A stretch of 64,000 bases of DNA from Catellatospora bangladeshensis (GTDB taxonomy: Bacteria; Actinomycetota; Actinomycetes; Mycobacteriales; Micromonosporaceae), in contig NZ_BONF01000055.1 in the NCBI RefSeq assembly GCF_016862575.1, positions 1 to 64,000 of the forward strand, read 5' to 3'. The notes beneath the pieces were generated by a model. That model was given only the letters and a program-made list of their open reading frames with translations, was not told the DNA's origin and made no database searches. The position numbers and the translations under genes were made by a program. Shown here in pieces: positions 4,423 through 30,243 of the stretch; position 1 is the stretch's first letter, and every line of letters starts with the position of its first letter.

Positions 4423-7400
4423 ATGGTGGTGGCGACTTCCAGCGACGTACCGGGTTCGGGGCGAGCCGGCGCTGTCGCGCAGGTCCTCGGCGCCGAAGGC
4501 GAGGTGGCCGGGGCCGGATTCCTGGTCGGCCCCGGCCTGCTGGTCACCTGCGCGCATGTGGTGGTGGCTGCCGGGGGCGGCCCGGATGGCCGGCTGTGGC
4601 TGGCCTTCCCCCATCTGGACGGTGCGCCGCGGGTGGCCGGGCAGGTGCTGGCCTCGTCATGGCGGGAGCCGGAGGCCGAGGATGTCGCGCTGGTGCAGCT
4701 GGACAGCGTGCCACCGGACGCCTCGGTGCCGGGACTGGGATCCGCGGCGGGGTGCCGGGGGCGCCGGGTCTGCTCGTTCGGGTTCCCCGCCCAGGCCCCT
4801 CCCGGCGGCCACTTCGGCTCCGGGGTGGTCTGTGACCTGCTTTCCGCCCCGGGTGCCGGTGAGCTCCTGCAGCTGACCGACGCCAACGACCTGACGACCG
4901 GCTTCAGCGGTGGGCCGGTGTTCGATGAGGTCACCGGTCTGGTGATCGGAATGATCACCTCGATCAGCCGGGCGGATGCCCACCTGCGGGGCACGGGCAT
5001 CGCCTATGCCACACCGACCCAGACCCTGCGACGGGTATGGCCCGAACTGGCCGAGCAGGAGGTCTGCCCCTACCGGGGTCTGGAGCCGTTCACCGCCGAG
5101 CACACCGGTTGGTTCCACGGCCGGACGAGCGCGGTGGAGCACGTGCTGGACGCGCTGGCCGGGACGCGGCGCGCGCTGCTGCTGCTCGGGCCCTCCGGTG
5201 CGGGCAAGTCGTCGCTGATGCAAGCCGGCGTGCTGCCCGCCCTGGCCACCGGTGCGCTGCCCGGCAGCGACCGGTGGATACCCGTGCTGGCCCGCCCGGG
5301 GCAGGACCTGCCGGCCGGACTCGAACGCGCCGGGCTGCCGGGGGCCGAGGACGGGTCGATCGCCGCGGCGGTCGAGCGCAGGCTGGCCGACGAGCCGGCC
5401 GGTGCGCGCCTGCTGCTGATCATCGACCAGTTCGAGGAGCTGCTGACCGCACCGGCCGCCGGGGACGCCGCCGCGTCTCGCGACGTGCTTGACCAGCTCC
5501 TGGCGGCGCTCGACTCGACCGCCCCGCTGAGCCTGGTGCTGGTGATGCGCGACGACTTCTACCCGCAGCTGGCCGCACAGGCGCCGGAGCTGCTGCAGGC
5601 GCTGACACCGGGCCTGGTCAACGTGCCGGCCACGCTGAGCACTCAGGATCTGCACGACATCGTCACCAAACCGGCGGCGGCGGTGGGACTGCGCTGCCAG
5701 GACGGGCTCGTGGAACGCATCATCACCGACATGCTGGCCGCAGGCCCCGACGCCTCCGGCCACCACGCGCCGATCACCATGCTGCCGCTGCTGGAACTTA
5801 CGCTGCAGCAGCTGTGGCAGCGCCGGCACGACGGTTACCTGACCCATGACGCATACCAGCGCATCGGCGGCGTCACCGGCAGCCTGGCCACCTGGTGCGA
5901 CACCGCGATCAACCAGCTGAGCCCGGCGCAGCGGCCTGCTGCGCAGCGGATCCTCACCGCGCTGGTCCGCCCGGCCGACGAAGCCCACCACATCCCCGGC
6001 GTCCGGCAGCAGTGCACCCTGGACGTGCTACGCGAACTGGCCGACGCGGACGACCCCGCCTCCGCCGACCGGACCGCCAACCAGGCAGACGAGGTGCTGG
6101 CCATTCTGACCAGCCAGCGGATCGTCACCACCCACGCCGTCCCCGCCACGGGGCAGCCCCTCGACGCCCCCGCGCTCCCGGTCGCCGAACTGGTCCATGA
6201 CACCCTGATCCGCGACTGGCACACCCTCCGCGACTGGGTCAGCAAGGACCACGACTTCCACGACTGGCTGCGCCGCGTCGACGAGAAGCGCATCCGCTGG
6301 GCGCACCGCCAGCAGCCCGACGACCTGTTACACGGCACCGACCTGGCTGAAGGCCTCGACTGGTCCAAGCAGCGCCACCTGCCCCGCGACATCGGGGTCT
6401 TCCTGACGGCGAGCCATCAACGCCAGCAGGCCGGACACCGGCGTGCCAGGCGCCTGAACGTCATCCTGGCCAGCCTGCTCATCGTCACCCTCACCACCAC
6501 CGGAGTGGCCGGGTGGCTGCGGCAGACCGCGGTCGCCGCAAAACAGGCCGCTGTCGCCGCGAAGCAGGCCGCGGACGGCGCGAAGCGCGAGGCTCAGTCC
6601 CGCCAGCTCGCCGCACAATCCACCACGCTCATCGACGCCAACTCCGATCTGGCCTCGCTGCTGGCCGTGCTGGCCTACCGGACCAATCCCACCACGGAAG
6701 CCATCGCCAGCCTGTACGGCGCCGCAGCGCTGCCTCTCCGGCGCCGCTTGAGCCATAGCAGCAGCGTGTGGTCGGTGGCATTCAGCCCGGACCAGAACAC
6801 CCTGGCCACCGGCAGTGCCGACCGCACGGTGCGGCTGTGGGACCCGGCCACCGGGCAGGCCCGCATCACCCTGACCGGCCACACCGGCGGGGTGCTGTCG
6901 GTGGCGTTCAGCCCGGACGGGCGCACCCTGGCCACGGCCAGCGACGACAAGACGGTGCGGCTGTGGGATGTGGCAACCCGGCGACCCCGCGCCACACTGA
7001 CCGGCCATACCGGCGGGGTGCTGTCGGTGGCGTTCAGCCGGGACGGGCGCACCCTGGCCACGGCGAGCGACGACAAGACGGTGCGGCTGTGGGACCCGGC
7101 CACCGGGAAGATCCGCATGACCCTGAACGGCCATACCAGCGACGTGCTGTCGGTGGCGTTCAGCCCCGACGGGCGCACCCTGGCCACGGCCGGCGACGAC
7201 AAGACCGTGCGGCTGTGGGACCCCGCCACCGGGCAGAACCGCCGCGCCCCACTGACCGGCCACAGCGGTCGCGTGTGGTCAGTGGCGTTCAGCCCCGACG
7301 GGCAGACCCTGGCCACCGGAAGCGGTGACCACACGGTGCGGCTGTGGAACCTGGCTGCCGGGCAGACCCGTGCCACCCTGACCGGCCACACCAGCGAGGT

Positions 7401-9480
7401 GCTGTCGGTGGCGTTCAGCCCGGACGGGCAGACCCTGGCCACCGGCAGCCACGACAAGACGGTGCGGCTGTGGGACCTGGCCACCGGGCAGACCCGCACC
7501 ACCCTGACCGGCCACACCGCACTCGTGTGGTCGGTGGCGTTCCAGCGGGACGGGCACACCCTGGCGACCGGCAGCGACGATGCCACGGTGCGGTTGTGGG
7601 ACCCGGCCACCGGGCAGGCCCGTACCTCCCTGTCCGGTCACACCGGTCCGGTGTGGGCGGTGACGTTCAGCCCGGACGGGCAGACCCTGGCGACCGGCGG
7701 CGAGGACGGGACGGCGCGGTTGTGGAACCCGGCCAGTGGGCAGACCCTCATCATCCTGACCGGCCATACCGGCCCCGTGAGGTCGGTGGCGTTCAGCCCC
7801 GACGGGCAGACCCTGGCCACCGGCGGCGACGACAAAGTGGTGTTGTGGAGTGTGACCTCCGGAGGAGAGCTCGATCCTGTGGCCGATCACAACCGCGGCG
7901 TGAGGTCGGTGGCGTTCAGCCCGGACGGGCGCACTCTGGCCGGCGGGGGCGAGGACGGAACGGTGCGGCTGTGGGACCTGGCCACCAGGCAGGCCCGCGC
8001 CACCCTGAGCGGCCACACCGGCGACGTGTTGTCGGTGGCGTTCAGCCCCGACGGGCAGACCCTGGCCACCGGCAGCGACGACAAGACGGTGCGGCTGTGG
8101 GACCCGGCCACCGGCCAGGCCCGCACCACCCTGACCGGCCATGCCAGCGGCGTCAGGTCGGTGGCGTTCAGCCCCGACGGGCGTACCCTGGCCACGGCCA
8201 GCGACGACGGCACCGTGCGGTTGCGGGACCCGGCCACCGGGCAGACCCGCACCACCCTGCCCGGCCAGACCGGCACGATGGGGGCCGTGGCGTTCGGCCC
8301 GGACGGGCGCACCTTCGCCACGGCCAGCTCCGGAACGGTGCGGCTGTGGGACCCGGCCACGGGACAGGCCCGCACTCCCCTGACCGGCCACACCGGCTGG
8401 GTGAACGCGGTGGCGTTCAGCCCCGACGGGCACACCCTGGCCACCGGCAGCTCCGACGACACCGTGCGGTTGTGGAACCCGGCCACCGAGCGTGGCACGC
8501 TGACCGGCCACACCGGCCCCGTGTGGTCGGTGGCGTTCAGCCCGGACGGGCACACCCTGGCCACGGGCGGCGAAGACGGGACGGCGCGGTTGTGGGACCC
8601 GGCCGGCGGGAAGACCCGTACCACGCTGACCGGCCACACCGGCCCCGTGTGGTCGGTGGCGTTCAGCCCGGACGGGCGCACCCTCGCCACGGCCGGCTCC
8701 GACGGGACGGCGCGGTTGTGGGACCCGGCCACCGGGCAGGCCCGCCGCGGCCCCCTGACCGGCCACACCGGCCCCGTGCGGGCGGTGGCGTTCAGCCCGG
8801 ACGGGCGCACCCTCGCCACGGCCGGCTCCGACGGGACGGTCCGGTTGTGGGACCCGGCCACCGGGCAGACCCGCGCCCCCCTCGGCGAAACCGACCCGGT
8901 GTCCTCGGTGGCGTTCAGCCCGGACGGGCGCACCCTGGCCACCGGCGGTTACGACGGCATGGTGCAGCTGTGGGACCTGTCCAGCGAGCAGATCCGCGCC
9001 ACCCTCGGCCAGACCGACCTGGTGTCGTCGGTGGCGTTCAGCCCGGACGGCCGGACCCTGGCCACGGCCAGTTCCGACGGTACGGTCCGGTTGTGGGACC
9101 CGGCCACCGGGCACACCCGCACCACGCTGACCGGTCACACCGGCTGGGTGAACGCGGTGGCCTTCAGCCCGGACGGGCGCACCCTGGCCACGGCCAGCGA
9201 CGACGGCACGGTGCGGTTGTGGGACCTGGCCACCCAGCAGGCCCGCACCACCCTGACGGGCCACAGCAGCGGCGTGCGGTCGGTGGCGTTCAGCCCGGAC
9301 GGGCGCACCCTGGCCACCGGCGGCTACGACGGCAAGGCGCGGTTCTGGAGCATCCCCTCGCAGGACCCGGTCGCCGCCATCGACAAGATCTGCTCAGCCG
9401 TCGGCCGGGACCTCACCCCGCTGGAGAGGTCCGCGTACCTGCCGGCAGATCAGCTGCTCGCGGTCGTCTGCCCCGCCTGA
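4423..9480 (+). CDS. trypsin-nSTAND1-WD40 protein
   Basis: A 1685-residue protein. Residues 1-190 form a trypsin-like peptidase: LLVTCAHVV (His45), EDVALVQLD (Asp87), GFSGGPVF (Ser162). After the linker CPYRGLEPFTAEHTGWFHGR comes an nSTAND1 NTPase with Walker A GPSGAGKSS (about 256-264) and Walker B LLLIIDQFEEL (about 330-340). A hydrophobic segment (about 678-695) and a short AAKQ-rich coiled coil precede 21 WD40 repeats (about 782-1644), enough for three seven-bladed propellers. A cysteine-containing tail (ICSAVGRDLTPLER) closes the protein, as in relatives. STAND proteins are signal-triggered oligomerising switches; here the peptidase is the likely effector and the propellers the sensor. 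All three peptidase residues and both nucleotide motifs are intact. Its stop faces the protease-nuclease gene across a strong hairpin. Confidence 0.92.
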   Translation: MVVATSSDVPGSGRAGAVAQVLGAEGEVAGAGFLVGPGLLVTCAHVVVAAGGGPDGRLWLAFPHLDGAPRVAGQVLASSWREPEAEDVALVQLDSVPPDASVPGLGSAAGCRGRRVCSFGFPAQAPPGGHFGSGVVCDLLSAPGAGELLQLTDANDLTTGFSGGPVFDEVTGLVIGMITSISRADAHLRGTGIAYATPTQTLRRVWPELAEQEVCPYRGLEPFTAEHTGWFHGRTSAVEHVLDALAGTRRALLLLGPSGAGKSSLMQAGVLPALATGALPGSDRWIPVLARPGQDLPAGLERAGLPGAEDGSIAAAVERRLADEPAGARLLLIIDQFEELLTAPAAGDAAASRDVLDQLLAALDSTAPLSLVLVMRDDFYPQLAAQAPELLQALTPGLVNVPATLSTQDLHDIVTKPAAAVGLRCQDGLVERIITDMLAAGPDASGHHAPITMLPLLELTLQQLWQRRHDGYLTHDAYQRIGGVTGSLATWCDTAINQLSPAQRPAAQRILTALVRPADEAHHIPGVRQQCTLDVLRELADADDPASADRTANQADEVLAILTSQRIVTTHAVPATGQPLDAPALPVAELVHDTLIRDWHTLRDWVSKDHDFHDWLRRVDEKRIRWAHRQQPDDLLHGTDLAEGLDWSKQRHLPRDIGVFLTASHQRQQAGHRRARRLNVILASLLIVTLTTTGVAGWLRQTAVAAKQAAVAAKQAADGAKREAQSRQLAAQSTTLIDANSDLASLLAVLAYRTNPTTEAIASLYGAAALPLRRRLSHSSSVWSVAFSPDQNTLATGSADRTVRLWDPATGQARITLTGHTGGVLSVAFSPDGRTLATASDDKTVRLWDVATRRPRATLTGHTGGVLSVAFSRDGRTLATASDDKTVRLWDPATGKIRMTLNGHTSDVLSVAFSPDGRTLATAGDDKTVRLWDPATGQNRRAPLTGHSGRVWSVAFSPDGQTLATGSGDHTVRLWNLAAGQTRATLTGHTSEVLSVAFSPDGQTLATGSHDKTVRLWDLATGQTRTTLTGHTALVWSVAFQRDGHTLATGSDDATVRLWDPATGQARTSLSGHTGPVWAVTFSPDGQTLATGGEDGTARLWNPASGQTLIILTGHTGPVRSVAFSPDGQTLATGGDDKVVLWSVTSGGELDPVADHNRGVRSVAFSPDGRTLAGGGEDGTVRLWDLATRQARATLSGHTGDVLSVAFSPDGQTLATGSDDKTVRLWDPATGQARTTLTGHASGVRSVAFSPDGRTLATASDDGTVRLRDPATGQTRTTLPGQTGTMGAVAFGPDGRTFATASSGTVRLWDPATGQARTPLTGHTGWVNAVAFSPDGHTLATGSSDDTVRLWNPATERGTLTGHTGPVWSVAFSPDGHTLATGGEDGTARLWDPAGGKTRTTLTGHTGPVWSVAFSPDGRTLATAGSDGTARLWDPATGQARRGPLTGHTGPVRAVAFSPDGRTLATAGSDGTVRLWDPATGQTRAPLGETDPVSSVAFSPDGRTLATGGYDGMVQLWDLSSEQIRATLGQTDLVSSVAFSPDGRTLATASSDGTVRLWDPATGHTRTTLTGHTGWVNAVAFSPDGRTLATASDDGTVRLWDLATQQARTTLTGHSSGVRSVAFSPDGRTLATGGYDGKARFWSIPSQDPVAAIDKICSAVGRDLTPLERSAYLPADQLLAVVCPA
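6766..9354 (+). repeat. 21-unit WD40 repeat array
   Basis: About 21 units of roughly 120-126 bases encode VxSVAFSPDGxTLATxSxDxTVRLWD. Many units are almost identical even at silent positions, which points to recent duplication or homogenisation. Unit 12 ends RLRD instead of RLWD, and units 9 and 13 are shorter. The array is a likely site of copy-number change. Confidence 0.85.
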
Positions 9481-9562: not shown

Positions 9563-11485
9563 TCACGCCAGCCGGATGTCCTCAAGCCGCCTCAGCTCGT
9601 GCAGCGGCATCGCGCCCGGCACGGTCTCCTCGCGGGCGAGCGGATCGGCGTTCTTGAGCTTGCCGAACCGCAGCCCGGTCAGCTCCTCGATCCGCGCGAT
9701 CGGGACCTGGTATGTCTTGAACTGGCCGAACACGAACTCGATGTCGGTGATCAGGTCGGCTTGGCTCACGGTGTAGGCGGTGGCGGTCAGCTTGCCGGTC
9801 TCGGCGTGCACCATGACGGCGACCTTCCAGAACGCCCGGGGCAGCTGCACGCCGCGATACTCCGGGTCCTCCTCGCTGAACACCGGGCCGGTGTACACGC
9901 ACGCGCGGAAGTCGAGCGTGTCGGCGTGCCCGAGCAGGTAGTCCTCCAGCTCCAGCCACAGGTGCTGGTTGAACTCGATGTGCTGCGGCGTGGCGTTGGT
10001 GAAGAAGAACGTGTCCTTCTCCGCGCGCTTCGCGTCCTCCAGGCTGCCCCAGGCGGGGTCCAGGCGGCGGACCAGATGTCCCCGGTCGAGGTCGTTGCCC
10101 GCGTAGAGGGCGTTGCCGACCTGCAGTGAGGCGTCCAGCCGCGGGTCGAAGCTCCAGCGGTCCTGCCCCCGCTTCAGCATGCGGCTGAGTGAGCCGTCGA
10201 TGTTCGAGGCAGTGAAGATCGCAAACTTGCGCTCGGTGTGCATAGCGATGGAGAAGTGCTGGTACTTGAGCAGGTGCCGGGCGGAGCCGGGGGCGTCGGC
10301 ATCCACGACGGCGGCGACCTCGGCCAGCGCCGCGGACAGCTCGGGCAGCGGCGTCTTGAGGTTGGCCGCGGTGCCCAGGAACGTCTCGTCGAAGCCCGGA
10401 CGGTCCTGCAGCGAGGCCGCCGACACCCGCGCCTCGGGCTCCGGCTTGAGCGTCTGGGCGAGGCTGACCGACTGCGGTCTCACGGCCCGTTTCGCCGTAC
10501 CGTCCAGCTTCTGCAGATGGCGGCGGAGTTCGGCAACGGTCACCGCGTAGTTGGCGTCCAGGTATTCGCCGGCGAAGTGCAGGCCCAGCGCGCCGCCGGT
10601 CTCGACGTCGATGACCACAGATCCGGAGCTGCCCCCGAGCGTCGTGCAGTCGTGCGTGAAGACCTTACGGTCGACCTTGCCCATCACCTCGCCCGGCGCC
10701 AGGCGCTTGACGTCGTAGATGCCGCCGAACAGCCGGGTCTGGTCCAGCAGGCTGTTGCGCGGATCCTCCGCCGGATATCCGATGACGGCCACCACCTGGC
10801 CCGGCTGCGGCTCGCCTTCATAGAGCGGCACCGGCGGCGGCAGCAGGCGGCCCTTGGGCGCCTCCAGCTCGATGAACGCCAGGTCCGGGGCGTCGGCGCC
10901 CTGATCGGCCACGTAGAGCACGCGCTTGACCCGCACCTCGAACGGCCGCACGCCCGCGTACTCCTCTTTGAAGTCCAGCCGCGCGGTCAAGGGCTGCCCG
11001 ATCGGGCTCGCCCGGAACACGAACTCGCCGCCGCGAGGCCGTACCAGTTCCGCGACCACGTGCCGGTTGGTCACGGCTATGCCGGGCGCGATCATCCAGG
11101 CGGTTCCCGCGTACGGCACCGACAGGCCGGTCACCTCCAGCCGCCCGACCGAGCGGATGGCCGCGTCCAGGCGCGACTTGGCGGGATACAGCCGCGAGCG
11201 CCAGATCTTCGCCTGCGGCAGTTCGAACGTGTCGTTGCGGACGAGCAGGGTGGGCCGGCCGAGCCGCTGAACGATGGCCTCCACCCGGGACTCTCGGCTC
11301 AGGGCCTCACGTACGGCGCGCTCGGCCGTGATCGGGTCCCGTGTCTCGGCGAGCAGGCTGACGTCGTGCCGGGCATGTCCGTTGGGCAGACCGGACAGCT
11401 GGCTCTCCATCTCGGGCAGCAGCTCGGCGATCTCGGATACCAGACGCTCGTCCTTCATGATCGATTCGCTTTGGAAGCGGCGCAT
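9563..11485 (-). CDS. trypsin-like peptidase fused to NUC endonuclease
   Basis: A 640-residue protein without signal peptide. Residues about 1-110 are helical and unassigned. A trypsin-like domain follows: GIAVTNRHVV (His142), DAPDLAFIEL (Asp), TTLGGSSGSVV (Ser). The C-terminal part is a DNA/RNA non-specific endonuclease domain with the family motif LDRGHL (His470, general base) and the metal-ligand segment FFFTNATPQHIEFNQHLW (Asn). Such NUC domains cut nucleic acids with little sequence preference. The start at 11485 is fixed by GGGGGA six bases before ATG; a longer open frame upstream has no support. One polypeptide carrying protease and nuclease suggests either two killing activities or a nuclease released by self-cleavage. 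It is divergent from the next operon with a shared 207-bp promoter region. Confidence 0.9.
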   Translation of the reverse strand: MRRFQSESIMKDERLVSEIAELLPEMESQLSGLPNGHARHDVSLLAETRDPITAERAVREALSRESRVEAIVQRLGRPTLLVRNDTFELPQAKIWRSRLYPAKSRLDAAIRSVGRLEVTGLSVPYAGTAWMIAPGIAVTNRHVVAELVRPRGGEFVFRASPIGQPLTARLDFKEEYAGVRPFEVRVKRVLYVADQGADAPDLAFIELEAPKGRLLPPPVPLYEGEPQPGQVVAVIGYPAEDPRNSLLDQTRLFGGIYDVKRLAPGEVMGKVDRKVFTHDCTTLGGSSGSVVIDVETGGALGLHFAGEYLDANYAVTVAELRRHLQKLDGTAKRAVRPQSVSLAQTLKPEPEARVSAASLQDRPGFDETFLGTAANLKTPLPELSAALAEVAAVVDADAPGSARHLLKYQHFSIAMHTERKFAIFTASNIDGSLSRMLKRGQDRWSFDPRLDASLQVGNALYAGNDLDRGHLVRRLDPAWGSLEDAKRAEKDTFFFTNATPQHIEFNQHLWLELEDYLLGHADTLDFRACVYTGPVFSEEDPEYRGVQLPRAFWKVAVMVHAETGKLTATAYTVSQADLITDIEFVFGQFKTYQVPIARIEELTGLRFGKLKNADPLAREETVPGAMPLHELRRLEDIRLA

Positions 11486-11538: not shown

Positions 11539-11692
11539 GGGACCCGATTAGGACGGCCCCGTCGCCGCACCGTACCGGCGGCAGGGCTGACCCCCGATCA
11601 GCCGCCTCCGTGTCGTTTCCGCAGGTCAGAGGCCAGATGTTGGTATGGTTCAGGCGACGTGGTCGCGTCGCCGCAGGCAAAGGATGCGCGTT

Positions 11693-12799
11693 ATGCCTTT
11701 CGAATTCTTCACCGAACCTGTCGACGAATCCGGTGCCGTGAGAGGCCAGGTCTGCTTGGCGACCGGCGACGGCAACCAGCCCTTGATCGCCTACACCACG
11801 GACTCCGGCGCCGTGATGCTCGCCGAGCGGGTGGACGGCGAATGGTTGTTGAGCAGTGTGCCGGGCGGCGCGGCGACCCACGACGCCTACCGTGTCTCGC
11901 TCGCGCTCGACGGGGGCGGCGAACCACACATCGCCTTCGTGAACGCCGATTCCGACCACCTGGTCTACGGGGTCCGACGGGCGACCTGGCAGTTCGAGGA
12001 CGTCCCGACGAAGGCCGGGCTTTTCCCAGGCCCCGTGCGGTTTCCGGCGTTGAGGCTCTACCGCGGATTCTTCGAAGATCCGGCGCACGACGGCGAAGCA
12101 TTCCAGTGGGCGCCGCATCTGTGTTATCAGGCCGGCCTGTCGCTGTGGCACGCGAGTAAGCAGAGGCGGCGCGCCACGCCGCAGAACCCGCCGACGTGGA
12201 AGAAGAACGTCGTGCCGGTCGAGGAGGCCGACGGCACGGAGAAGGGCTGGTTCGCCACGCTTGACTTCGACCACGAGGACAATCTGCGGATCGCCGCCTT
12301 CGACGATCTGCCGGGCGGCAACAGACGGCGGCTGCGCCTGTCGACTCTCCTAAGGGACTTCGAGGACGGACCGGACGAGACGGAGACGATCGAGGCCGTC
12401 GGCGGCGACATCGTGGGCGAGTACCCGGCGATAGCGCACTCGATCACCGGCGAGGCAATCGTCACGTACTACGAACGCAAGGAGCGCGCGATCAAGGTCT
12501 TCATGTTCGGCAACGGCCCGGGCCTGCCGGCCCTGGGGACTGTGGCGAGCGACCTGGACGGCGTCAACGTGCAGCCCTCACCGGCCATCAGTTTCAACAA
12601 CGGATTCTGCGTCGCGTACGGCTCCGGCGGAAAGCTGCGGCTGGCCACCCGGGTCGGCAGCGCCGGTCTCGCCATCCAGGACGTGGCCGACGGCGGCGAC
12701 TGGGCCAGCCTGGACATCGACATCGATGGCAATGCGCACATCGCGCACGTGGCGGAGGGCAGACTGATGTACGCCTTCGCCTCGCGCAGCGAAGGCTGA
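11693..12799 (+). CDS. predicted beta-propeller protein, first gene of a three-gene unit
   Basis: A 368-residue protein that I cannot place in a named family. The sequence is built of repeated strands such as VCLATGDGNQPLIAYTT, VSLALDGGGEPHIAFVNADS and SLDIDIDGNAHIAHVAEGRL, a pattern of about 45-60 residues that recalls BNR/sialidase-like propellers. No signal peptide or membrane segment is seen. I start at ATG 11693 because AAAGG is nine bases upstream; ATG 11684 overlaps that site. The stop is two bases before the next start, so it is in one operon with the two giant proteins that follow, and probably acts with them. Confidence 0.65.
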   Translation: MPFEFFTEPVDESGAVRGQVCLATGDGNQPLIAYTTDSGAVMLAERVDGEWLLSSVPGGAATHDAYRVSLALDGGGEPHIAFVNADSDHLVYGVRRATWQFEDVPTKAGLFPGPVRFPALRLYRGFFEDPAHDGEAFQWAPHLCYQAGLSLWHASKQRRRATPQNPPTWKKNVVPVEEADGTEKGWFATLDFDHEDNLRIAAFDDLPGGNRRRLRLSTLLRDFEDGPDETETIEAVGGDIVGEYPAIAHSITGEAIVTYYERKERAIKVFMFGNGPGLPALGTVASDLDGVNVQPSPAISFNNGFCVAYGSGGKLRLATRVGSAGLAIQDVADGGDWASLDIDIDGNAHIAHVAEGRLMYAFASRSEG

Positions 12800-12801
12800 C
12801 C

Positions 12802-18923: not shown

Positions 18924-19004
18924 GCGGATGCGGCATTTGCGGCAGCTGCCGGTGTCCGCGATGACAGCATGAATGTGGACTTGATCTGACACGGGGAGAA
19001 CCCA

Positions 19005-20768: not shown

Positions 20769-20790
20769 CCCTGCCCGGAGGAGACTCACG

Positions 20791-21045
20791 ATGCGTATCG
20801 GAACCCAGTTCACCGGATCGCTCGCCGCCGGCGAGAGCGGCAGCTGGTTCACCCACTCCTGGCCACCGGAGTGGCATGTGCTGTGGCACGTCATGCCGAT
20901 CACCCCGGCGCCGGGCGCGCCGGAGGTCGAGTGGGACGTCGAGGTCGAACGGGCCGACGCCGCCAAGGTGACGTACTGGTTCACCATCCGCAACCTCAGC
21001 AATGCGCCCATGGACTTCGAGGCTCGCTACGCCGTCATGAACTGA
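20791..21045 (+). CDS. free-standing copy of the WHVLW domain
   Basis: An 84-residue protein (MRIGTQFTGSLAAGESGSWF..., ending PMDFEARYAVMN). It aligns without gaps to the C-terminal domain of the preceding subtilase: Q-F-x-G-x-L-A-A, WFTxxWPxxWHVLWxVxP, PGAPxxxxxxxVERAxxxxxTYWxxIxNLxxxPxDFEARxxV. The composition suggests a compact beta sandwich with exposed tryptophans. I know no name for this domain. GGAGGAG precedes ATG 20791, 22 bases after the subtilase stop. It may be an inhibitor, a pseudo-substrate or a decoy that binds what the peptidase domain binds. Confidence 0.8.
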   Translation: MRIGTQFTGSLAAGESGSWFTHSWPPEWHVLWHVMPITPAPGAPEVEWDVEVERADAAKVTYWFTIRNLSNAPMDFEARYAVMN

Positions 21046-21058
21046 GGAGGGGCAATCC

Positions 21059-21289
21059 GTGAAGAAGAGCATCACCAGCCACGACCGGCCGGTCGACGGC
21101 GGTCCCGCACCCGTCGACGGCCTGACCGGCTCCAGGGGGCCCGGCACGGGCACGCCGGCCAATGACGGCGGTTCGCCGCCGGCCTGGCTGGTGGACGGGA
21201 TCGCGGCGGCGGGCGGCCTGACATCCACGTCGTCGTCACAGCGCGGTGGCGGCGCGGCTCGCGACGCCGGAGGTCCGCCGAGGCTCTAG
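21059..21289 (+). CDS. short disordered protein
   Basis: A 76-residue protein rich in Gly, Ser and Pro, predicted disordered (DGGPAPVDGLTGSRGPGTGT, SSSQRGGGAARDAGGPPRL) around one short apolar stretch (PAWLVDGIAAAGGLT). It starts at GTG 21059 with a strong GAGGAGGGG seven bases upstream and lies 13 bases after the WHVLW gene, which supports translation. No family is recognised. It could be a linker peptide, a protease substrate or a small regulatory peptide of the island. Confidence 0.55.
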   Translation: MKKSITSHDRPVDGGPAPVDGLTGSRGPGTGTPANDGGSPPAWLVDGIAAAGGLTSTSSSQRGGGAARDAGGPPRL

Positions 21290-21330
21290 CCGCGTGAAGG
21301 GCACACCACGAGACAGGAAAGGACTGCCGC

Positions 21331-22551: not shown

Positions 22552-22660
22552 TCGCCGGGATCTGCGCCTCGTCGACCCCTCACCGACGGCTGCCGATGAC
22601 AGTGGCACTGTTGTCGGGCTTTGTCCTGTTCCCTGTGGCATCCGGTGGGATCATGGGGCT

Positions 22661-23464
22661 GTGGATGTCCGTACCCGAAACCATGTCACCTTCACGGGGC
22701 CTGCGGACGCTCCGGTGGTGATGCTCGCCCATGGCTTCGGTTGCGATCAGAACATGTGGCGCCGGATCGTGCCCTCGCTGGCCGTCGACCATCGAGTGGT
22801 GTTGTTCGATCACGTGGGGTCCGGGCGTTCGGACCCGGCGGCCTGGGACGCCGACCGGTACGCGTCCCTGTCCGGCTACGCCGAAGACGTCCTGGAGATC
22901 TGCCGCGAGCTGGCCCTGCCGCCGGTCACGTTCGTGGGGCACTCGGTCGCCTCGATGATCGGCGTGCTGGCCGCCAACCGCGAACCCGACCGGTTCGCAG
23001 CACTGGCGCTGATCACGCCGTCGCCGTGTTACATCGACGACGGCACCTACCGCGGCGGGTTCAGCCGAGCCGACATCGATGAGCTGCTGGAGTCGCTGGA
23101 CAGCAACTACCTCGGCTGGTCCGCGACGATGGCACCGGTGATCATGGGCAATCCGGACCGGCCGGAACTGGGCGAGGATCTCACCAACAGCTTCTGCCGG
23201 ACCGACCCGGCCATGGCCTCGGTCTTCGCCCGCGCGACGTTCCTGTCCGACAACCGCGCGGACCTCGCGGCCGTCAGCGTGCCGACGCTGATCCTGCAGT
23301 GCTCCCACGATGCGATCGCACCACCGGAGGTGGGCTCCTACGTCCGGCAGCACATTCGGGGCAGCCGCCTGGTGACCCTGGCGGCGACCGGTCACTGTCC
23401 CCAGCTGAGCGCCCCGGAGGCGACGGCTGCGGCGCTGCGCGAGTTCCTGGAAGAAGTCCGATGA
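22661..23464 (+). CDS. rsbQ: RsbQ-like alpha/beta hydrolase
   Basis: A 267-residue hydrolase closely resembling Bacillus RsbQ. The triad is Ser95 (GHSVASMIG), Asp217 (CSHDAIAP) and His245 (GHCPQLSAPE), each two or fewer positions from the Bacillus numbers (96, 219, 247). Other RsbQ signatures are LITPSPCYIDDGTYRGGF, NYLGWSATMAPVIMGNPDRPEL and FCRTDPAMASVFARATFLSDNR. RsbQ binds an unknown small hydrophobic ligand and is needed to switch on the phosphatase RsbP in energy stress; D14/KAI2 hormone receptors of plants belong to the same group. The next gene is an RsbP-like phosphatase, so function is well supported. GTG 22661 has only a modest RBS. Confidence 0.9.
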   Translation: MDVRTRNHVTFTGPADAPVVMLAHGFGCDQNMWRRIVPSLAVDHRVVLFDHVGSGRSDPAAWDADRYASLSGYAEDVLEICRELALPPVTFVGHSVASMIGVLAANREPDRFAALALITPSPCYIDDGTYRGGFSRADIDELLESLDSNYLGWSATMAPVIMGNPDRPELGEDLTNSFCRTDPAMASVFARATFLSDNRADLAAVSVPTLILQCSHDAIAPPEVGSYVRQHIRGSRLVTLAATGHCPQLSAPEATAAALREFLEEVR

Positions 23465-23518
23465 CGTCGCGGCAGCCGGAGGGACCGACGAGAGCGGCGC
23501 GGATGTGACATCACCGCG

Positions 23519-24697
23519 ATGCTAGAAGACAGCGCAGACGACCTGTATGAGAACGCTCCGTGCGGCAATCTGTCGACCCTGCTCGACGGGACCATCGCCA
23601 GGATCAACCGGACGTTGCTGGGCTGGCTGGGCTACGGCCGGGACGAAGTCGTCGGCCGGCTCCGGTTCAGCGACCTGCTCACCGTCGGTGGGAAGATCTA
23701 TTACGAGACGCATTACGCACCGCTGCTGAGCCTGCAGGGCGAGGTGGGCGGAGTCGCCCTGGACCTGCGCGCCAAGGACGGCCGCAAACTGCCGGTGCTG
23801 GTCACCTCGGCGGTGAAGACCGGCGACGACGGCCGGCCCCTGCTGATCCGGACCACCGTGTACGACGCCCGCGACCGGCGCGCCTACGAAGAGGAACTCC
23901 TGCGCGCCCGCCGCGCCGCGGAGGCCGCGGAACGCGCCGCCCACGAGGATCGGCAGCGCCTGCAGAAGCTGGTCGAAGGCCTCCAGCGCAGCCTGCTTCC
24001 GCAGCAGCTCCCTGTCCCGCCGGCGATGGACGTCGCCGCCCACTACCAGGCGGCGTCAGCCGATGAGGTAGGCGGGGACTTCTACGACCTGTTCCCCCTC
24101 GGCGGCGACCGCTGGGGGTTCTTCCTCGGCGACGTGTGCGGCAAAGGCGTCGAAGCCGCCGCGGTCACGGCGCTGGCACGCTACACGCTGCGCGCCGCGA
24201 CGGTCTACGACCCCGACCCGGCGCAGGTGCTGAGCAACCTCAACACCGTCCTGTATCAGGAATACCTGTCCGATGACCACCGCTTCTGCACCGTCGTGTT
24301 CGGCATCCTGGGCCCGGCGACCACCGAAGGCCGCTGCCTGACCGTCACCGGCGGCGGTCATCCCCCGGCCCTGCTGCTGACCGCGGCGGGCACCGCCGAG
24401 TATGTGCCCACCAGCGGAGGCCCGCTGGTGGGCATGCTGCCCGGCCTGCAGTTCACCACCCACACGTATCTGCTGCGTCCAGCCGACACGCTCATCGTCT
24501 ACACGGACGGCCTCACCGACGCCCGCATCGACGACGCCAATGGCCGTTACAGCCACGAAGCGCTGCTCGAGTTCGCGGCCTCGATCGCTCCCGCTTCGGC
24601 GACGGCGGCCGTCGCGTCCCTGGCCGGCCTGCTCGCCGGATTCGGCGCCGGCCTCGACGACGACGCCGCCGTCATGGCCCTGACTGTCACGCCATGA
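23519..24697 (+). CDS. rsbP: RsbP-like PAS-SpoIIE/PP2C phosphatase
   Basis: A 392-residue protein, close to Bacillus RsbP (about 400). Residues 1-115 are a PAS domain (LLDGTIARINRTLLGWLGYGRDEVVGR...), residues about 120-160 a coiled coil rich in Arg/Ala/Glu, and residues about 175-390 a PPM/SpoIIE phosphatase with metal motifs DEVGGDFYD and GDVCGKGVEAA, GGGHPPALL, YTDGLTDAR and DDDAAVMAL. Such enzymes dephosphorylate anti-anti-sigma factors. It follows rsbQ after 54 bases. No anti-sigma or anti-anti-sigma gene is nearby, so the target lies elsewhere or differs. Its location inside the protease island suggests it reports stress to that system, an inference. Confidence 0.9.
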   Translation: MLEDSADDLYENAPCGNLSTLLDGTIARINRTLLGWLGYGRDEVVGRLRFSDLLTVGGKIYYETHYAPLLSLQGEVGGVALDLRAKDGRKLPVLVTSAVKTGDDGRPLLIRTTVYDARDRRAYEEELLRARRAAEAAERAAHEDRQRLQKLVEGLQRSLLPQQLPVPPAMDVAAHYQAASADEVGGDFYDLFPLGGDRWGFFLGDVCGKGVEAAAVTALARYTLRAATVYDPDPAQVLSNLNTVLYQEYLSDDHRFCTVVFGILGPATTEGRCLTVTGGGHPPALLLTAAGTAEYVPTSGGPLVGMLPGLQFTTHTYLLRPADTLIVYTDGLTDARIDDANGRYSHEALLEFAASIAPASATAAVASLAGLLAGFGAGLDDDAAVMALTVTP

Positions 24698-25208
24698 CCG
24701 CCGCTGTCAGCAATGGGCGGTCCATGTCCGACTCCTGTTCCGGCGCTCGAGGATGCGGATTTCGGATTGCGGCTTCGCTCCTGCGCTAGTCCGATACGCT
24801 TTTCCTGGCGGAGTCGAGGCGCCGGCTCGGCTTCCGGGGTTCAGCAGGCGAACAGGTGGAGCTCCCATGGGCGAGGCAGTCTTCCCGGATTAGGGTCCGC
24901 GCCGGGCAGCCGACCGCAGCCGGCGCGCATCACATCACCCTTTACCCGTCCGTCGCGGCGCAAAGGCCGATCGGCCCCGCGACGCCGATTCAGCAACTCT
25001 TCGACCTCCGGCTTCGCGCTGTCCCAGGCGGCTTCGGGCTGCACTCCGCCGGTGACCGCGGTGCAGGTCGCGCTGGCCGCCATGGCAGTTCGCGCTCGCC
25101 GGCGCGCCGGTGAAGCCCCTCCCGCAGCGGTCGGTCGGCGTCACCGCACCGGCGGCGCACCATGCCGCGTGCCCCGACCTCAATGTTCCGACGCACCGAG
25201 GAGGACAC
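24698..25208 (+). other. 511-bp gap before the papain-family gene
   Basis: No convincing gene is seen. A small minus-strand frame (25083-24841, starting MAASATCTAVTGGVQPEAAW) is faintly protein-like but lacks a good RBS and turns arginine-rich. The middle part (about 24750-24900) is less GC-rich than its surroundings and may hold the promoter of the peptidase gene. GAGGAGG at its right end is that gene's RBS. Confidence 0.35.
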
Positions 25209-26042
25209 ATGCCACGCACGACGAAGAAGAACGCCGAGAGTGCCAACCACGCCGTCGCCGTCGGGGAGCGCATCTGCAACCTCGTTCCGTCCAGGGGGAT
25301 CACCACCGACTGGACACTCGGCGACGCGATGGCGGTCGGCGCGCTGACGGCCGTGCCCCTGCCCAGCAGCGTCGACCTGCGCGCGCCGTGGTGGGAGGTC
25401 GGCGACCAGGGTGGCACGGGATCCTGCGTGGGCTGGGCCACCGGCGACGGGCTGATGCGCTTCCACCTGGTGAAAGCGGGCCTGATGCGCAAGGACCAGC
25501 ACATCTCGCCGCGCTACGTCTGGATGGGATCGAAGGAGACCGACGAGTTCACCACCCGGCCGGAGTCCTTCATCGAGCGTTCGGGCACCTCGCTCAAGGC
25601 GGCGGTCGACCTGTGCCGCAAACACGGCGTGGTCACGACCGACCTGCTGCCCTTCGCGCTCGAGGACAGCCTCTACGCGGGGCCGGAGAACGCGTTCTGG
25701 GCCGCGGCCGCGCAGCTGCGCGCGACGTCGTACTTCAACATCGGCCTCGACATCGAGCGCTGGAAGGTGGCGGTCGCGCAGGATCAGCCGGTCCTGTGCG
25801 GGCTGGTCGTGGACCGGACCTGGCGCGACGCCACGGAGACCGGCGGCGAGCTGGACGAGTTCGACGTGGGCAGCGCGGGCGGCGGGCACGCCGTGTGCGC
25901 CGTGGGTTACCGCAGCGACGGCAGGATCATCCTGCGCAACAGCTGGGGCACCGGCTGGGGCGACCAGGGCTTCGCCTACGCGTCGCCCGAGTACCTCCAG
26001 GCGGCGTTCTTCCCTGAGGCGTACGTGGTGACGGTCCGGTGA
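25209..26042 (+). CDS. C1 (papain-family) cysteine peptidase
   Basis: A 277-residue peptidase without signal peptide or long propeptide. Key segments: VGDQGGTGSCVGWATGDGL (Cys73, with the Gln of the oxyanion hole upstream), GGGHAVCAVGY (His227) and LRNSWGTGWGDQGF (Asn244). Residues 1-45 form an unusual N-terminus with KKNAESA, a heptad-like motif seen again as KKNVESA in the 116-residue protein encoded at 29493. ATG 25209 follows GAGGAGG; an upstream ATG at 25110 adds a non-conserved stretch. A perfect 16-bp hairpin ends the transcript. It is the fifth peptidase of the island and a fourth catalytic or fold class (trypsin, STAND-trypsin, subtilase, papain). Confidence 0.9.
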   Translation: MPRTTKKNAESANHAVAVGERICNLVPSRGITTDWTLGDAMAVGALTAVPLPSSVDLRAPWWEVGDQGGTGSCVGWATGDGLMRFHLVKAGLMRKDQHISPRYVWMGSKETDEFTTRPESFIERSGTSLKAAVDLCRKHGVVTTDLLPFALEDSLYAGPENAFWAAAAQLRATSYFNIGLDIERWKVAVAQDQPVLCGLVVDRTWRDATETGGELDEFDVGSAGGGHAVCAVGYRSDGRIILRNSWGTGWGDQGFAYASPEYLQAAFFPEAYVVTVR

Positions 26043-26287: not shown

Positions 26288-29107
26288 ATGGTCGGTGCGG
26301 AGCCGGAGCGGGAGCTGCGCCTGGCGCTCGTCCTCAATGGAGGGGTGAGCCTGGCCGTGTGGATGGCGGGCGTGGCGTACGAGATCGACCTGCTGCGGCG
26401 GGCCTCGGCGCAGGACCGGTCTGCGGTCGCCGACGACGCGGTCGCGCGGCAGTGGTGGATGCTGTGCCACCCGGAACAGGGGACGAGCCGGCGAGTGGTC
26501 GTCGATGTCATCGCGGGCACCAGCGCCGGAGGCATCAACGGCACTCTGCTGGCCGCCGCCGTCGCACGTGGGGCGACCCTGGACCCGGTCGAGTTCGAAG
26601 CGACGTCGGCCAGGTCGAGGCGCTGGATGCGGGAGGTGTGGACCGAGCGGGCGTGCCTGGAGCGGGGCAAGCTCCTGCCCGACGGCCCCGGCCCGCGATC
26701 GGTGCTCGACGGCGACTACTTCTCCGAGACCATCACGTCCGTGCTCACCGAGGTGGACGCGGACGGCGCCGAAGGGCTGCCGGTCACCCTGTTCCTCACC
26801 GCCACCTGCATGGGCCACAGCCAGCGCAGCTACGTCGACTCCTACGGCCAGGCGTTCACCGTCGCCGACCACCGGCGGCTGTACCAGTTCGAGCACGCGC
26901 CGAGGCGGATCGAGTACGTCGCACCCGACGCCGCGGCCGACCTGGACGGCGGGCTCGACGGCTGTTTCCGGCTGTCGGAGCGCAACGACTTCGCCCGGGG
27001 CAACGCCGCGCAGCTGGCCCGTGCCGCGCGCGCGTCGGCGTCGTTCCCGGTGGCGTTCGCGCCCGTGCCGAGCACGCCCGCGCTGTGCGCGCAGCAGGCG
27101 CCGGGAACGCCGCGCCTGGGCGGCGCGGGGCCGCTGCTGGACGGCGGGATCCTGGACAACTCCCCGTTCGGGCCCGTGCTCAAAGCGGTCGCCTACCAGC
27201 CGCTGGACTCCCCTGCCGATCGGCTCGTCGTCTACGTGGTCCCGTCCAACGGCAGTGAGACGGCCGAGGATCCGGCGCCCGGGGCCGAGCCGACACTGCG
27301 CCAGGTCATCGGCTCCACCATGAGCTTTCCCAGGGAGGCGGACTTCCGGCTGGACGTCGACGGCATCGCCGACCTGATGGTGGCCTCGAACGCCGCCTGG
27401 GAGGAGGCCCAGGCGCTGTTCACGACGCTGCTGTCGAACGCGGCCGAGCGGCGGGACTTCTCGCACCTGGCTCGCCGGCTGGTGCCGGTCTACCGCCGCG
27501 GCCGCGCCGCCGGGGGCGTCTGCGAGGCGCAGAGCCTGGCCCGGCCGGGGCCCAGCACGGCGCTGTCGGCGGCGCCCGGGCTGGACCAGGCGGAGGTCGA
27601 GGCGGTGCTGGCGACCTCTCCGCGCTGGATCCCGCCGGACAGCCAGGGGCACGGCGCCCTCGGCGACCCGGCGACCACTCAGCCGTGGCACTGGGGCGTC
27701 ACCGCGGCGCACCGCGCCGTACGGCTGATGCTGTCCAAACTCCGCACCGATCTCGACGGCAGCCCCACGGCCGAACTGCAGGCGGCGGTGGCGGAAGTCG
27801 ATGCGCAGCTGCGGCGGGTGCTGGCCGTCCGCGACGAACTGGAGCGCACGCTGGCCGGGCTGATCCCGCCACGGCAGAGCGGCGCGGCGGCCGTGGCGGT
27901 CGCCGTCAACACGCAGCTGACGCGTCTTCGTATCCCCGAGGTGCTGGGACATGTCGTCACCGCGGCAGCCCTGCGGGTCGCCTCGGTGTACGGCCAGACG
28001 CCGCAGGCCGTGCTGGAGTGCGTGCTGACGGTCGAGGTGCTGGCCTGCAGTCTCAACGCAAGGGTGTCCAGCCCTCGCCCCGCCCCGTTCAAGCTGCTGC
28101 GGCTGGGGCCTGATGTGGAGGTCCCCGTGCTCAGCCACCACGAGGCGGGTGCGCTGGCCGGGCGGCTGGGCGCGTTGAAGCTGTACGGCACCCAGGTGAA
28201 CCATTTCGCCGCGTTCGGCCTGCCGCAGTGGCGCGACTGGGACTGGCTCTGCGGCAGGCTGGACGCGGTGGCACATCTGGGCGCGGCGCTGGACGCATCA
28301 CCCGAGTGGATCAAGAGCACGCAGGCGGCCGTGCTGGCCGCCGAAGGCTCCGACCCCGACGACTACGCCCAACGGATCAAGGCCATGCGCGGTGTGGACA
28401 CCGACAGGCTGCACAAGGCTATGATCGACGATGAGCGTGGCGGTCAGAGCCTGTTCGACCTGGGCCGGCGGCTGATCCAGGTGGCCGCGTCCGCCGCGGG
28501 CGACACTTCCGCCTCAGCGCGCTGGCTGCGGGTCGCCGTCGATCCGTGTTCCCCGGCCGACAAGCCGGGCACCGTCCGGCTGATGCGCTGGCTGACTCAT
28601 CCCGCAAGAGCCAATGCCTGGTCACGGCTGGCGTCCAGGCACGCGGTCCTGCCCGAACCGGCGGTGCCGCGCCTGCTCGATCTGAAGGCGCACGCGATCG
28701 CTCTCGCCACGGCCACTGCCCTGGCGCTGCTCGCCGTCGCCGGTGTCAGCGTCGCCACCGGCACGAGCGTGCGCGGCGCGACGGCAGCCGCCGCGGGAGT
28801 CCTCATCGGCTTCCTCGCGGTCCTGCTCGCCGGCGCCGGCATCCTTCTCCTGCTCACCAGCATCAACTCCGGCCACAGGACACGGTGGACACGGGCAGTC
28901 GGCGGCTTACTGGCAGCAGGTGCCGCGGTCGCCGGGTTGGTGGCGTGGTGCCGGACGGCTCAGGCGCCTGGCTCCCTCACCGCGGCGGCTGCGGCGGGCA
29001 CCGCCGTGATCTTCCTCGGGCTGCTGTCGCTGGGCGGCGCGGCAGGGCTCCACGGGTTGCGCCGCGGAGCCGGCCGGCTCGTCCGCCCGCACAGTCGGAA
29101 AAAGTGA
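26288..29107 (+). CDS. large patatin-like phospholipase with C-terminal membrane segments
   Basis: A 939-residue protein of the long patatin-like group. The catalytic dyad is GTSAGG (Ser79) and LLDGGILDN (Asp285), and LNGGVSLAVWMAGVAYEI supplies the oxyanion loop. A long helical middle part follows. From about residue 805 there are four hydrophobic segments, for example ALATATALALLAVAGVSVAT and TAAAAAGTAVIFLGLLSLGG, then a basic end (RRGAGRLVRPHSRKK). These proteins hydrolyse phospholipids and, here, are probably anchored to the inner membrane; membrane damage is a common output in conflict systems. No clear RBS precedes ATG 26288. A near-perfect hairpin follows the stop. Confidence 0.88.
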   Translation: MVGAEPERELRLALVLNGGVSLAVWMAGVAYEIDLLRRASAQDRSAVADDAVARQWWMLCHPEQGTSRRVVVDVIAGTSAGGINGTLLAAAVARGATLDPVEFEATSARSRRWMREVWTERACLERGKLLPDGPGPRSVLDGDYFSETITSVLTEVDADGAEGLPVTLFLTATCMGHSQRSYVDSYGQAFTVADHRRLYQFEHAPRRIEYVAPDAAADLDGGLDGCFRLSERNDFARGNAAQLARAARASASFPVAFAPVPSTPALCAQQAPGTPRLGGAGPLLDGGILDNSPFGPVLKAVAYQPLDSPADRLVVYVVPSNGSETAEDPAPGAEPTLRQVIGSTMSFPREADFRLDVDGIADLMVASNAAWEEAQALFTTLLSNAAERRDFSHLARRLVPVYRRGRAAGGVCEAQSLARPGPSTALSAAPGLDQAEVEAVLATSPRWIPPDSQGHGALGDPATTQPWHWGVTAAHRAVRLMLSKLRTDLDGSPTAELQAAVAEVDAQLRRVLAVRDELERTLAGLIPPRQSGAAAVAVAVNTQLTRLRIPEVLGHVVTAAALRVASVYGQTPQAVLECVLTVEVLACSLNARVSSPRPAPFKLLRLGPDVEVPVLSHHEAGALAGRLGALKLYGTQVNHFAAFGLPQWRDWDWLCGRLDAVAHLGAALDASPEWIKSTQAAVLAAEGSDPDDYAQRIKAMRGVDTDRLHKAMIDDERGGQSLFDLGRRLIQVAASAAGDTSASARWLRVAVDPCSPADKPGTVRLMRWLTHPARANAWSRLASRHAVLPEPAVPRLLDLKAHAIALATATALALLAVAGVSVATGTSVRGATAAAAGVLIGFLAVLLAGAGILLLLTSINSGHRTRWTRAVGGLLAAGAAVAGLVAWCRTAQAPGSLTAAAAAGTAVIFLGLLSLGGAAGLHGLRRGAGRLVRPHSRKK

Positions 29108-29492: not shown

Positions 29493-29843
29493 ATGTCTGT
29501 CACCACACGTCAAGACCAGCTGGTCGACCCGACTCCCGCCACGGACAAGAAGAACGTCGAGTCCGCGGTGGTCGAAGGCCGCACGCTCGAGCTTCGAGTG
29601 GGGAACATCAATGGTGTCCAGCACGTCTGGACGCGCCTGACCAAAGCGAAGGCCGGCGACGTCATCTGGATCGAGCGCACCACCGACGGCGGCGCTCACT
29701 GGAAGGCCTTCGGCAAGCGCACCATCACGGCCGGCGGGCGCAACTACACCGACGCCCTGCGGACCGACCCGAGTGACCAGGTGAGAATGCGGGCCCACAC
29801 GGACCTCAAGGACGGCGACGCATACCAGACCGCCCCGTTCTGA
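29493..29843 (+). CDS. 116-residue beta-rich protein with KKNVESA N-terminus
   Basis: I do not recognise a family. The first 30 residues are polar (TPATDKKNVESAVVEG) and share KKN(A/V)ESA with the N-terminus of the papain-family peptidase of the island. The rest is predicted beta: LELRVGNINGVQHVWTRLTK, DVIWIERTTDGGAHWKAFGK with an Asp-box-like TDGGAHW, and SDQVRMRAHTDLKD. There is no signal peptide. ATG 29493 is fixed by GAGGAGG. A perfect 12-bp hairpin follows. A binding or partner protein of the island is possible. Confidence 0.7.
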   Translation: MSVTTRQDQLVDPTPATDKKNVESAVVEGRTLELRVGNINGVQHVWTRLTKAKAGDVIWIERTTDGGAHWKAFGKRTITAGGRNYTDALRTDPSDQVRMRAHTDLKDGDAYQTAPF

Positions 29844-29858
29844 TCACTCGTCACGAAT

Positions 29859-29888: not shown

Positions 29889-29925
29889 AGCCCCGGCCAT
29901 ACGTCTCACGAACGGAGGACTCCCC

Positions 29926-30243
29926 ATGGCGAGCGTGGCCCAGATCCAGCTGGAGGGCGGCGGATCGATCCTGGTCGAGGCGCCGGACGTGACGGACGGG
30001 CCGGTGAAGGCGGGCCGGGTGGGCGATGCGATCCGCGAGCTGCCGGTGAGCCTGCAGGCCGCTCTGGTGCCGGTGACCGAGGCGGCCAGGGCGATGCTGG
30101 AGCAGCTGCGTCAGGCGGGACCTGCCGGCATCGACGTGGAGTTCGGGGTCGACCTCGCCATGCAGGCCGGAGCGGTGATCACCAAGAGCGAGACGTCCTG
30201 CCACCTGAAGGTGAGACTGACCTGGCACCCGGGTGATGCCTGA
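29926..30243 (+). CDS. CU044_2847-type protein (trypsin-co-occurring domain 1)
   Basis: A 105-residue protein. The pattern IQLEGGGSILVEAP...VKAGRVGDAIRELPVSLQAALVPVTEAARAMLEQLRQAGPAGIDVEFGVDLAMQAG...CHLKVRLTW is the compact alpha/beta domain called Trypco1, named because it is found next to trypsin-like domains in NTP-dependent conflict systems. Its presence here, with three trypsin-like domains in the same island, is direct contextual support for that kind of system. Its molecular role is unknown; adaptor or activator functions have been proposed. ATG 29926 follows GGAGGA. It is the last recognisable gene of the island. Confidence 0.82.
   Translation: MASVAQIQLEGGGSILVEAPDVTDGPVKAGRVGDAIRELPVSLQAALVPVTEAARAMLEQLRQAGPAGIDVEFGVDLAMQAGAVITKSETSCHLKVRLTWHPGDA

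Follow-up and report, generated by a model that had tools for sequence, protein, structure and literature searches.

A conserved two-gene unit in a composite locus of Catellatospora bangladeshensis

Gene content of the locus

The stretch of Catellatospora bangladeshensis DNA analyzed here (contig NZ_BONF01000055.1, positions 1 to 64,000; the window) carries, between 4423 and 30243, an array of peptidase, nuclease and other hydrolase genes surrounding three consecutive uncharacterized genes, P1, P2 and P3. A preliminary description took the whole interval for one proteolytic conflict or cell-death island with a common function. Genes were called from open reading frames (ORFs), GC content at third codon positions (GC3) and a simple codon-based gene caller, and were scanned with Pfam (19 ORFs over 980-32764), NCBIfam, PADLOC and PHROGs. 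Every gene named in that description is present by these scans and the ORF calls, and coding status is backed by GC3 and conservation.

P1 (11693-12799, 368 aa, from the gene caller) is propeller-like by eye. P2 (12802-15468, 888 aa) and P3 (15465-18923, 1152 aa) represent new families, for which AlphaFold predicts a porin-like C-terminal sheet and three C-terminal Fn3-like domains, respectively. All three lie on the forward strand; the spacing of 2 bp between P1 and P2 and the 4-bp overlap of P2 with P3 make the operon proposed for them plausible. P2 and P3 match nothing in the four libraries; for P1, Pfam, PHROGs and PADLOC give nothing and NCBIfam gives two matches at chance level. By sequence, none of the three matches a PDB entry, and Pfam detects no NTPase in any of them.

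Conservation and spread of P2-P3

P3 occurs in six of 60 related genomes, or seven of 61 with its own. P2 adjoins P3 on the same strand in all six intact loci of these relatives, a 290-aa P3-related gene separating the two in three cases; one of the six (G028) is identical with a locus of the wider collection described next (L038, Allorhizocola rhizosphaerae; P2 of 1376 aa, P3 of 1147 aa). A seventh locus, G028:C45, consists of fragments of both genes. A scan for P3 relatives with a single sequence found none; when a collection of species genomes was scanned with a three-sequence P3 alignment, 123 relatives were confirmed and 79 loci were kept. P2 adjoins P3 in 73 of these 79 loci, which represent ten phyla. 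The two genes overlap in 19 pairs and are separated by at most 60 bp in 41 and by at most 300 bp in seven; the six wider gaps all contain a WD40 gene. Among the six loci that have no adjacent P2, L093, on a long contig, is a true exception and L082 contains a 379-aa piece; in the other four (L057, L060, L084 and L097) the sequence starts within about 110 bases of the P3 match. Beyond P2 and P3, no gene recurs throughout the loci examined. That P2-P3 is a conserved, undescribed two-gene unit is thus well supported.

The rows of the P3 tree carry 11 phylum labels (Actinomycetota, Bacillota, Pseudomonadota, Chloroflexota, Bacteroidota, Chlorobiota, Balneolota, Ignavibacteriota, Cyanobacteriota, Armatimonadota and Myxococcota), in ten of which P2 is seen too, several of the genomes being metagenome bins. 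In this tree, built by a quick method, the window P3 forms a group with that of Streptomyces resistomycificus (L035, 52% identical), joined next by two Bacillota (support 80) and a Sphingomonas (98), a grouping which suggests transfer. A P1 orthologue (45%) lies upstream of P2 in S. resistomycificus, the sole one among the loci examined. P3 has no match in phage records and eight in plasmid records, every one below 60% identity. Four of the eight are annotated as hypothetical protein and the other four rows have no feature there, one record having only a single listed feature overall. A search of the PMC literature gave no paper attributable to P2-P3, which is weak evidence since the pair has no name.

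Composite structure of the interval

Comparison with G007, a genome of the same genus, divides the interval. By blastn, 13.16 kb of the window (11555-24716) is absent from G007, where 774 unrelated bp stand instead, and both flanks are 87-96% identical. The missing block holds P1, P2, P3, a subtilase, small genes, a trypsin-TIG protein and an RsbQ-RsbP pair. G007 keeps, in the same order, the STAND gene (95% over its trypsin-STAND part) and the genes for the trypsin-NucA (trypsin-NUC; 96%), papain-family (96%) and patatin-like (90%) proteins; it also keeps a 116-aa gene (97%), Trypco1 (95%) and a GH11 xylanase (97%), and has two genes between papain and patatin that are missing in the window. 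The GC content of the block, 0.70, is close to that of the flanks, 0.72 and 0.71. A search for direct repeats at the block ends gave only short, chance-level matches, so the block may have been gained in the window or lost in G007; a papain link to Cytobacillus, described below, would favor loss.

The interval combines units that elsewhere are found separately: G007 has the flanks and lacks the block, Trypco1 adjoins the trypsin-STAND gene in relatives, the trypsin-NUC gene occurs without STAND in two genomes, and RsbQ-RsbP stands alone in another (G009). We consider it highly probable that the locus is composite and that P2-P3 is a genuine unit within it. The preliminary description had looked to conserved synteny of P2 and P3 with the STAND, NUC and Trypco1 genes. 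In the flanks (up to 10 kb) of the 79 loci, jackhmmer finds no relative of the trypsin-NUC, Trypco1, patatin or subtilase genes, one papain relative, and one STAND relative three genes off. The single island with a common function is not borne out, since for most of its links homologues lie scattered with no conserved neighborhood, the pattern that the description itself had named as speaking against it. What survives of the conflict-island idea is that STAND/Trypco1 and trypsin-NUC are of described conflict systems, and that P2 and P3 form an undescribed conserved unit with peptidases near it in four loci of its own branch; the claim of one system does not survive. The locus illustrates how neighboring insertions can be mistaken for one system, and how comparison with a close genome settles such cases.

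Conflict-related genes of the flanks

The trypsin-nSTAND1-WD40 protein (4423 or 4429 to 9480, forward) matches nSTAND1 with an E value of 3e-88 and WD40 in 21 stretches among the Pfam matches listed, which are the best 25 of 73 families; its trypsin part is recognized by PADLOC protease models (residues 26-181) and by inspection of the sequence. Homologues covering both trypsin and STAND occur in five of the 60 relatives (G003, G005, G007, G008 and G013). Trypco1 (29926-30243, forward; Pfam E 3e-23) directly adjoins the trypsin-STAND gene in four of the five relatives that have both: it is immediately upstream in G013 and 28 bp upstream in G003, and G005 and G008 have it in divergent orientation about 110-145 bp away. 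The two genes are separated only in the window (by 20.4 kb) and in G007 (by 10.7 kb). Because of this adjacency in four relatives, as in Kaur et al. (2020; PMC7159879), Trypco1 is taken to go with the STAND gene. Together they are a known type of conflict module, trypsin-nSTAND1 and Trypco1 belonging to the NTP-dependent conflict systems described in the available part of that paper. The WD40 blades of the STAND protein (6752-9342) are about 80% alike at the DNA level and align in many ways with those of G007 and G003, which suggests recent amplification.

The trypsin-NucA endonuclease protein (9563-11485, reverse, 640 aa) has Pfam matches to Endonuclease_NS (6e-47) and Trypsin_2 (5e-14), and a 903-aa ORF extends 5' beyond its likely start. 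The protein is found whole in one of the 60 relatives, G007, in which trypsin-NUC and STAND are kept together as in the window. Among 120 genomes of the order, two more (G151 and G114) have it in long open frames, and blastp finds no STAND or Trypco1 match in the 20 kb around it in either. By its domain order, the protein fits the "System 3" architecture of Kaur et al. and that of Caulobacter LypC. The System 3 list, in the accessible part of the source, comprises a trypsin-NucA fusion, S8 and papain-like peptidases and trypsin-STAND, mostly from alphaproteobacteria (PMC7159879).

Other enzymes of the interval

The S8 subtilase (19089-20768, forward; Peptidase_S8 2e-11) has one relative among the 60 genomes, 39% identical over 352 residues (residues 121-472). 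Its C-terminal domain is common to the next gene (20791-21045, forward), which encodes an 84-aa protein that by sequence comparison is a copy of this domain; no further copy occurs among the loci examined. A 76-aa ORF (21059-21289, forward, from the gene caller), a small unknown with a weak coding score, follows. The NAL1-like trypsin (21352-22551, forward) is recognized by PDB matches to NAL1 (NARROW LEAF 1) structures, its trypsin domain falling below the Pfam cut-off. Its C-terminal TIG-like domain has no Pfam match of its own; a Bacillus homologue has a TIG match. That homologue, an S1-TIG gene beside P2-P3 in Bacillus sp. B15-48 (L055), is 37% identical over the full length, and L037, L038, L078 and L094 also have NAL1-like trypsins close to the pair. 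At E 1e-8 the gene is found in one of the 60 relatives; the copy in G028 was missed by that search, so the rarity is overstated.

The RsbQ-like alpha/beta hydrolase (22715-23464, forward; Abhydrolase_1 5e-26) and the RsbP-like PAS-SpoIIE phosphatase (23519-24697, forward; Pfam) form a stress-sensing pair of a known kind, an alpha/beta hydrolase adjoining a PAS-PP2C phosphatase. The pair stands among unrelated genes in G009 (91 and 87%), and four of ten genomes of the genus have RsbP matches with E values of 1e-60 or better. The papain-family peptidase (25209-26042, forward; Peptidase_C1 2e-11) is found in G007 only among 20 relatives; in Cytobacillus (L036) a 28% homologue lies two genes from P2. 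At L036:4327-5505 a papain-like gene adjoins a 109-aa gene, whose product we take to resemble a chagasin-type cysteine protease inhibitor. The patatin-like protein (26288-29107, forward; TIGR03607, slightly under cut-off) has hydrophobic C-terminal segments by eye. A patatin-like gene also lies about 0.8 kb after P3 on a plasmid of Rhizobium ruizarguesonis (L124:14587-17100). The 116-aa small unknown (29493-29843) is an ORF call. Judged by eye, all five peptidases and the nuclease appear to have intact catalytic motifs. Outside the interval, 1073-2313 contains a P-loop kinase-like AAA_33 gene that shares a 4-bp overlap with a gene of the Thg1 (tRNA-His guanylyltransferase) family, which seems unusual for an actinomycete.

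Partner modules and neighbors of the pair

Several binding modules accompany P2 and P3. DUF346 repeats are found by Pfam in seven of 36 P2 scanned, and N-terminal extensions of at least 250 aa in 17 of 73. WD40 is fused to the C-terminus of P2 in L046 and L066 and to the N-terminus of P3 in L037, and is a separate middle gene in six loci. Big_3_5, Laminin_G_3, Tachylectin and PG_binding_1 each occur in one of 36 P3. Genes of peptidoglycan (PG)-binding families are enriched beside the pair by motif and jackhmmer counts on called genes: at a distance of at most one gene they number 8 of 155, compared with 2 of 511 at four or more (p 0.0002), and at most two genes away 9 of 294 (p 0.003). A Pfam tally of 136 neighbors (of 139 listed, with L083:2698, L088:2393 and L106:13541 left out) is dominated by WD40 models (8 members), with PG_binding_1 at 6. 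A PG_binding_1-type N-terminus with varying C-terminal parts is seen next to P2-P3 at L043:5477-6760, L048:13659-14864, L100:4666-6054, L051:3312-5807 and G008:C1:887513-889951; the L051 protein ends in phospholipase D and others, by eye, in a HELTH or HELNH zincin-like stretch, which looks like an effector family with a constant front end. At G008:C1:898158-902787 a TPR-CHAT-like protein lies upstream of P2, with a divergent S8-like gene and a sigma factor-like gene beyond (by eye).

Export signals differ between the branches of P2. Tat-type signals are present in 11 of 44 P2 of the other branch and in none of 27 in the window's branch (11 of 71 overall), where these proteins have no clear leader. 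The P2 sheet resembles outer-membrane beta-barrels among the Foldseek matches listed, with weak E values.

Peptidase-like motifs are found in 11 of 122 genes at a distance of at most one from the pair, compared with 8 of 370 far genes (p 0.0017), and in 14 of 224 genes within two (p 0.013). The far set contains two S8 and one astacin gene (L035 and L078), which works the opposite way and lowers the measured excess. In the first motif test, of genes within two of the pair (224) against those at four or more (370), S8 numbered 0 and 2, S1 8 and 3 (p 0.024), zinc peptidases 5 and 3 (p 0.16) and the PG-binding motif 1 and 0; a C1 motif (16 and 10) was dropped as too loose. In the window's own branch, the window has S8 and S1-TIG; L035 has S8, astacin and S1 (by eye) upstream of P1-P2-P3; L055 has S1-TIG on the opposite strand; and L036 has the papain, an astacin-like protein and M15. 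The families vary by locus, as exchangeable enzymes would. At L035:1513-5833 a single strand carries, ahead of P1-P2-P3, a subtilase recognized by Pfam, a short gene that by eye is I9 inhibitor-like, an astacin recognized by Pfam and, again by eye, an ATP-grasp-like gene.

Possible roles of P1-P2-P3

The best overall explanation, which we put forward tentatively and at rather less than even odds, is a composite locus in which P1-P2-P3 make a beta-rich binding scaffold working with interchangeable peptidases. P2 and P3 would form a single beta-rich scaffold through a presumed contact. The target, probably a glycan, a wall or a protein surface, would be bound by propeller, lectin, Ig/Fn3 and PG-binding modules present in the chain itself or encoded by adjacent genes, and the swappable peptidases, in the window S8 and the NAL1-type S1-TIG, would be the working enzymes. 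Because there is no clear leader in the window's branch, the scaffold would act there in the cytosol, or reach the outside through lysis or some unknown route; in some members of the other branch, the Tat-type signal on P2 would place that version outside the membrane. Taken by itself, this mechanism is doubtful, its estimate having been lowered slightly because of a stricter peptidase count. Slightly more doubtful still is its extended form, in which P1-P2-P3 would be the core of an undescribed, horizontally spread bacterial apparatus directed against neighboring cells or surfaces: its beta-rich body, made of two proteins, would have a porin-like sheet and Fn3 arms, along with exchangeable propeller or lectin aiming modules and exchangeable leaderless peptidases and other hydrolases. 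If true, the scaffold would be a new way for bacteria to aim peptidases.

A number of observations weigh against this scaffold with its peptidases. Among the 11 near genes, three (L043, L048 and L100) encode PG-binding proteins with no Pfam peptidase, and three more (L089, L104 and L109) belong to one Streptomyces group and are S1-like by motif only, L089 having no Pfam family. The count falls to 8 of 122 (p 0.033) without the first three and to 5 of 122 (p 0.32) without all six. All tests were picked once the data had been seen, and the excess of peptidases in general is fragile. By eye, no peptidase is present in the related Sphingomonas locus L044, none is fused to any of the 36 P2 and 36 P3 scanned, and the S8 of the window shows no significant similarity to that of L035 (E 0.089). 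The S1-like genes at +1 in Streptomyces carry ordinary secretion signals and their P2 none, and the papain is kept in G007 although P2-P3 is absent. The leader scan is coarse, with a P3 score of 1.81 that falls inside the control range, and the porin-like sheet modeled for P2 may be only a common arrangement.

The strict peptidase count, which is not significant, agrees with P2-P3 being an exported adhesin of the cell envelope or matrix, the peptidases serving as maturation enzymes or being accidental neighbors. The Tat-type signals, the lectin, Ig-like, Fn3 and PG-binding modules and the PG-binding genes adjoining the pair point the same way; the lack of a clear leader on P2 in the window's branch does not, nor does the retention of S1-TIG near P2-P3 in Bacillus and in this actinomycete, although in Bacillus it lies on the opposite strand. 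This possibility, somewhat less favored than the overall explanation above, is in its form with accidental neighbors at least as likely as the scaffold-plus-peptidase mechanism itself. The boldest reading that the structural models allow has P2 insert into membranes as a beta-barrel pore and P3 bind the receptor, the two being a released pore or delivery device that carries leaderless hydrolases. We judge this unlikely: a folded barrel whose outside is apolar is an improbable Tat substrate, the apolar face of the P2 sheet may point inside, and the Foldseek E values are weak. A little less likely again is that P2-P3 serves ordinary cell physiology as a polymer, storage or lipid-carrier complex, the peptidases being unrelated. 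The neighbors of many loci do resemble ordinary metabolic or transport genes (seen, uncounted), and against it stand the patchy distribution among the relatives and the PG-binding and propeller partners of the pair.

Least likely of all is the single NTP-dependent cell-death island, in which STAND would sense, Trypco1 couple, the proteases and nuclease execute, and P2 and P3 act as sensors or scaffolds. It draws on the STAND, Trypco1 and trypsin-NucA parts known from conflict systems (PMC7159879), on the union of trypsin, NLR and trypsin-endonuclease proteins in Caulobacter LypABC, as far as the accessible text of that report goes (PMC13236601), on STAND and NUC staying together in G007, and on the papain near P2 in Cytobacillus and the patatin near P3 on the Rhizobium plasmid. 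It is largely refuted by synteny: G007 retains the remainder without P2-P3, the subtilase, S1-TIG or RsbQ-RsbP, and in the 79 loci NUC, patatin and Trypco1 relatives were not found beside the pair and STAND only once. The new part of the locus is the P2-P3 core alone, STAND/Trypco1, trypsin-NUC and RsbQ-RsbP being of known kinds. Kept together in ten phyla, matching nothing in four libraries and accompanied by propeller and lectin-like partners and, in one branch, by peptidases, this pair of about 2,000 residues is a concrete and testable unknown.

Relation to known systems

Tc toxins and contractile injection systems contain large beta-rich proteins that lack a leader and include lectin or propeller parts. 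The window differs from them: the Pfam and PHROGs scans of the interval ORFs give no sheath, tube, baseplate, Rhs or Tc domains, and Tc chains appear as weak Foldseek rows only. Likeness to the DUF346/tectonin-like propeller lectins (PF03984) lies in the DUF346 repeats of P2 relatives; the window P2 has none, and its propeller-like P1 is a separate gene with no Pfam match.

The closest counterparts are those of the flanking genes. The window protein has its trypsin domain fused to a STAND NTPase, as in the Trypco/trypsin-STAND systems of Kaur et al. (2020), and shares with them the trypsin-nSTAND1 architecture and, in relatives, the Trypco1 neighbor. It differs in that no vWA, MoxR or VMAP match is among the Pfam matches listed, and the available part of the paper does not mention P1-P2-P3 (PMC7159879). 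With the CARD-NLR-like LypABC system, as presented in the accessible part of its report (PMC13236601), the differences are that trypsin, ATPase and WD40 form a single chain in the window and that the NUC gene is on the opposite strand, and is without STAND in G151 and G114. In Caulobacter a trypsin and an NLR ATPase work alongside LypC in lysis control, and the trypsin-NUC protein of the window resembles LypC in the order of trypsin then endonuclease and in size, the domains of LypC extending to residue 662 and the window protein having 640 aa (PMC13236601).

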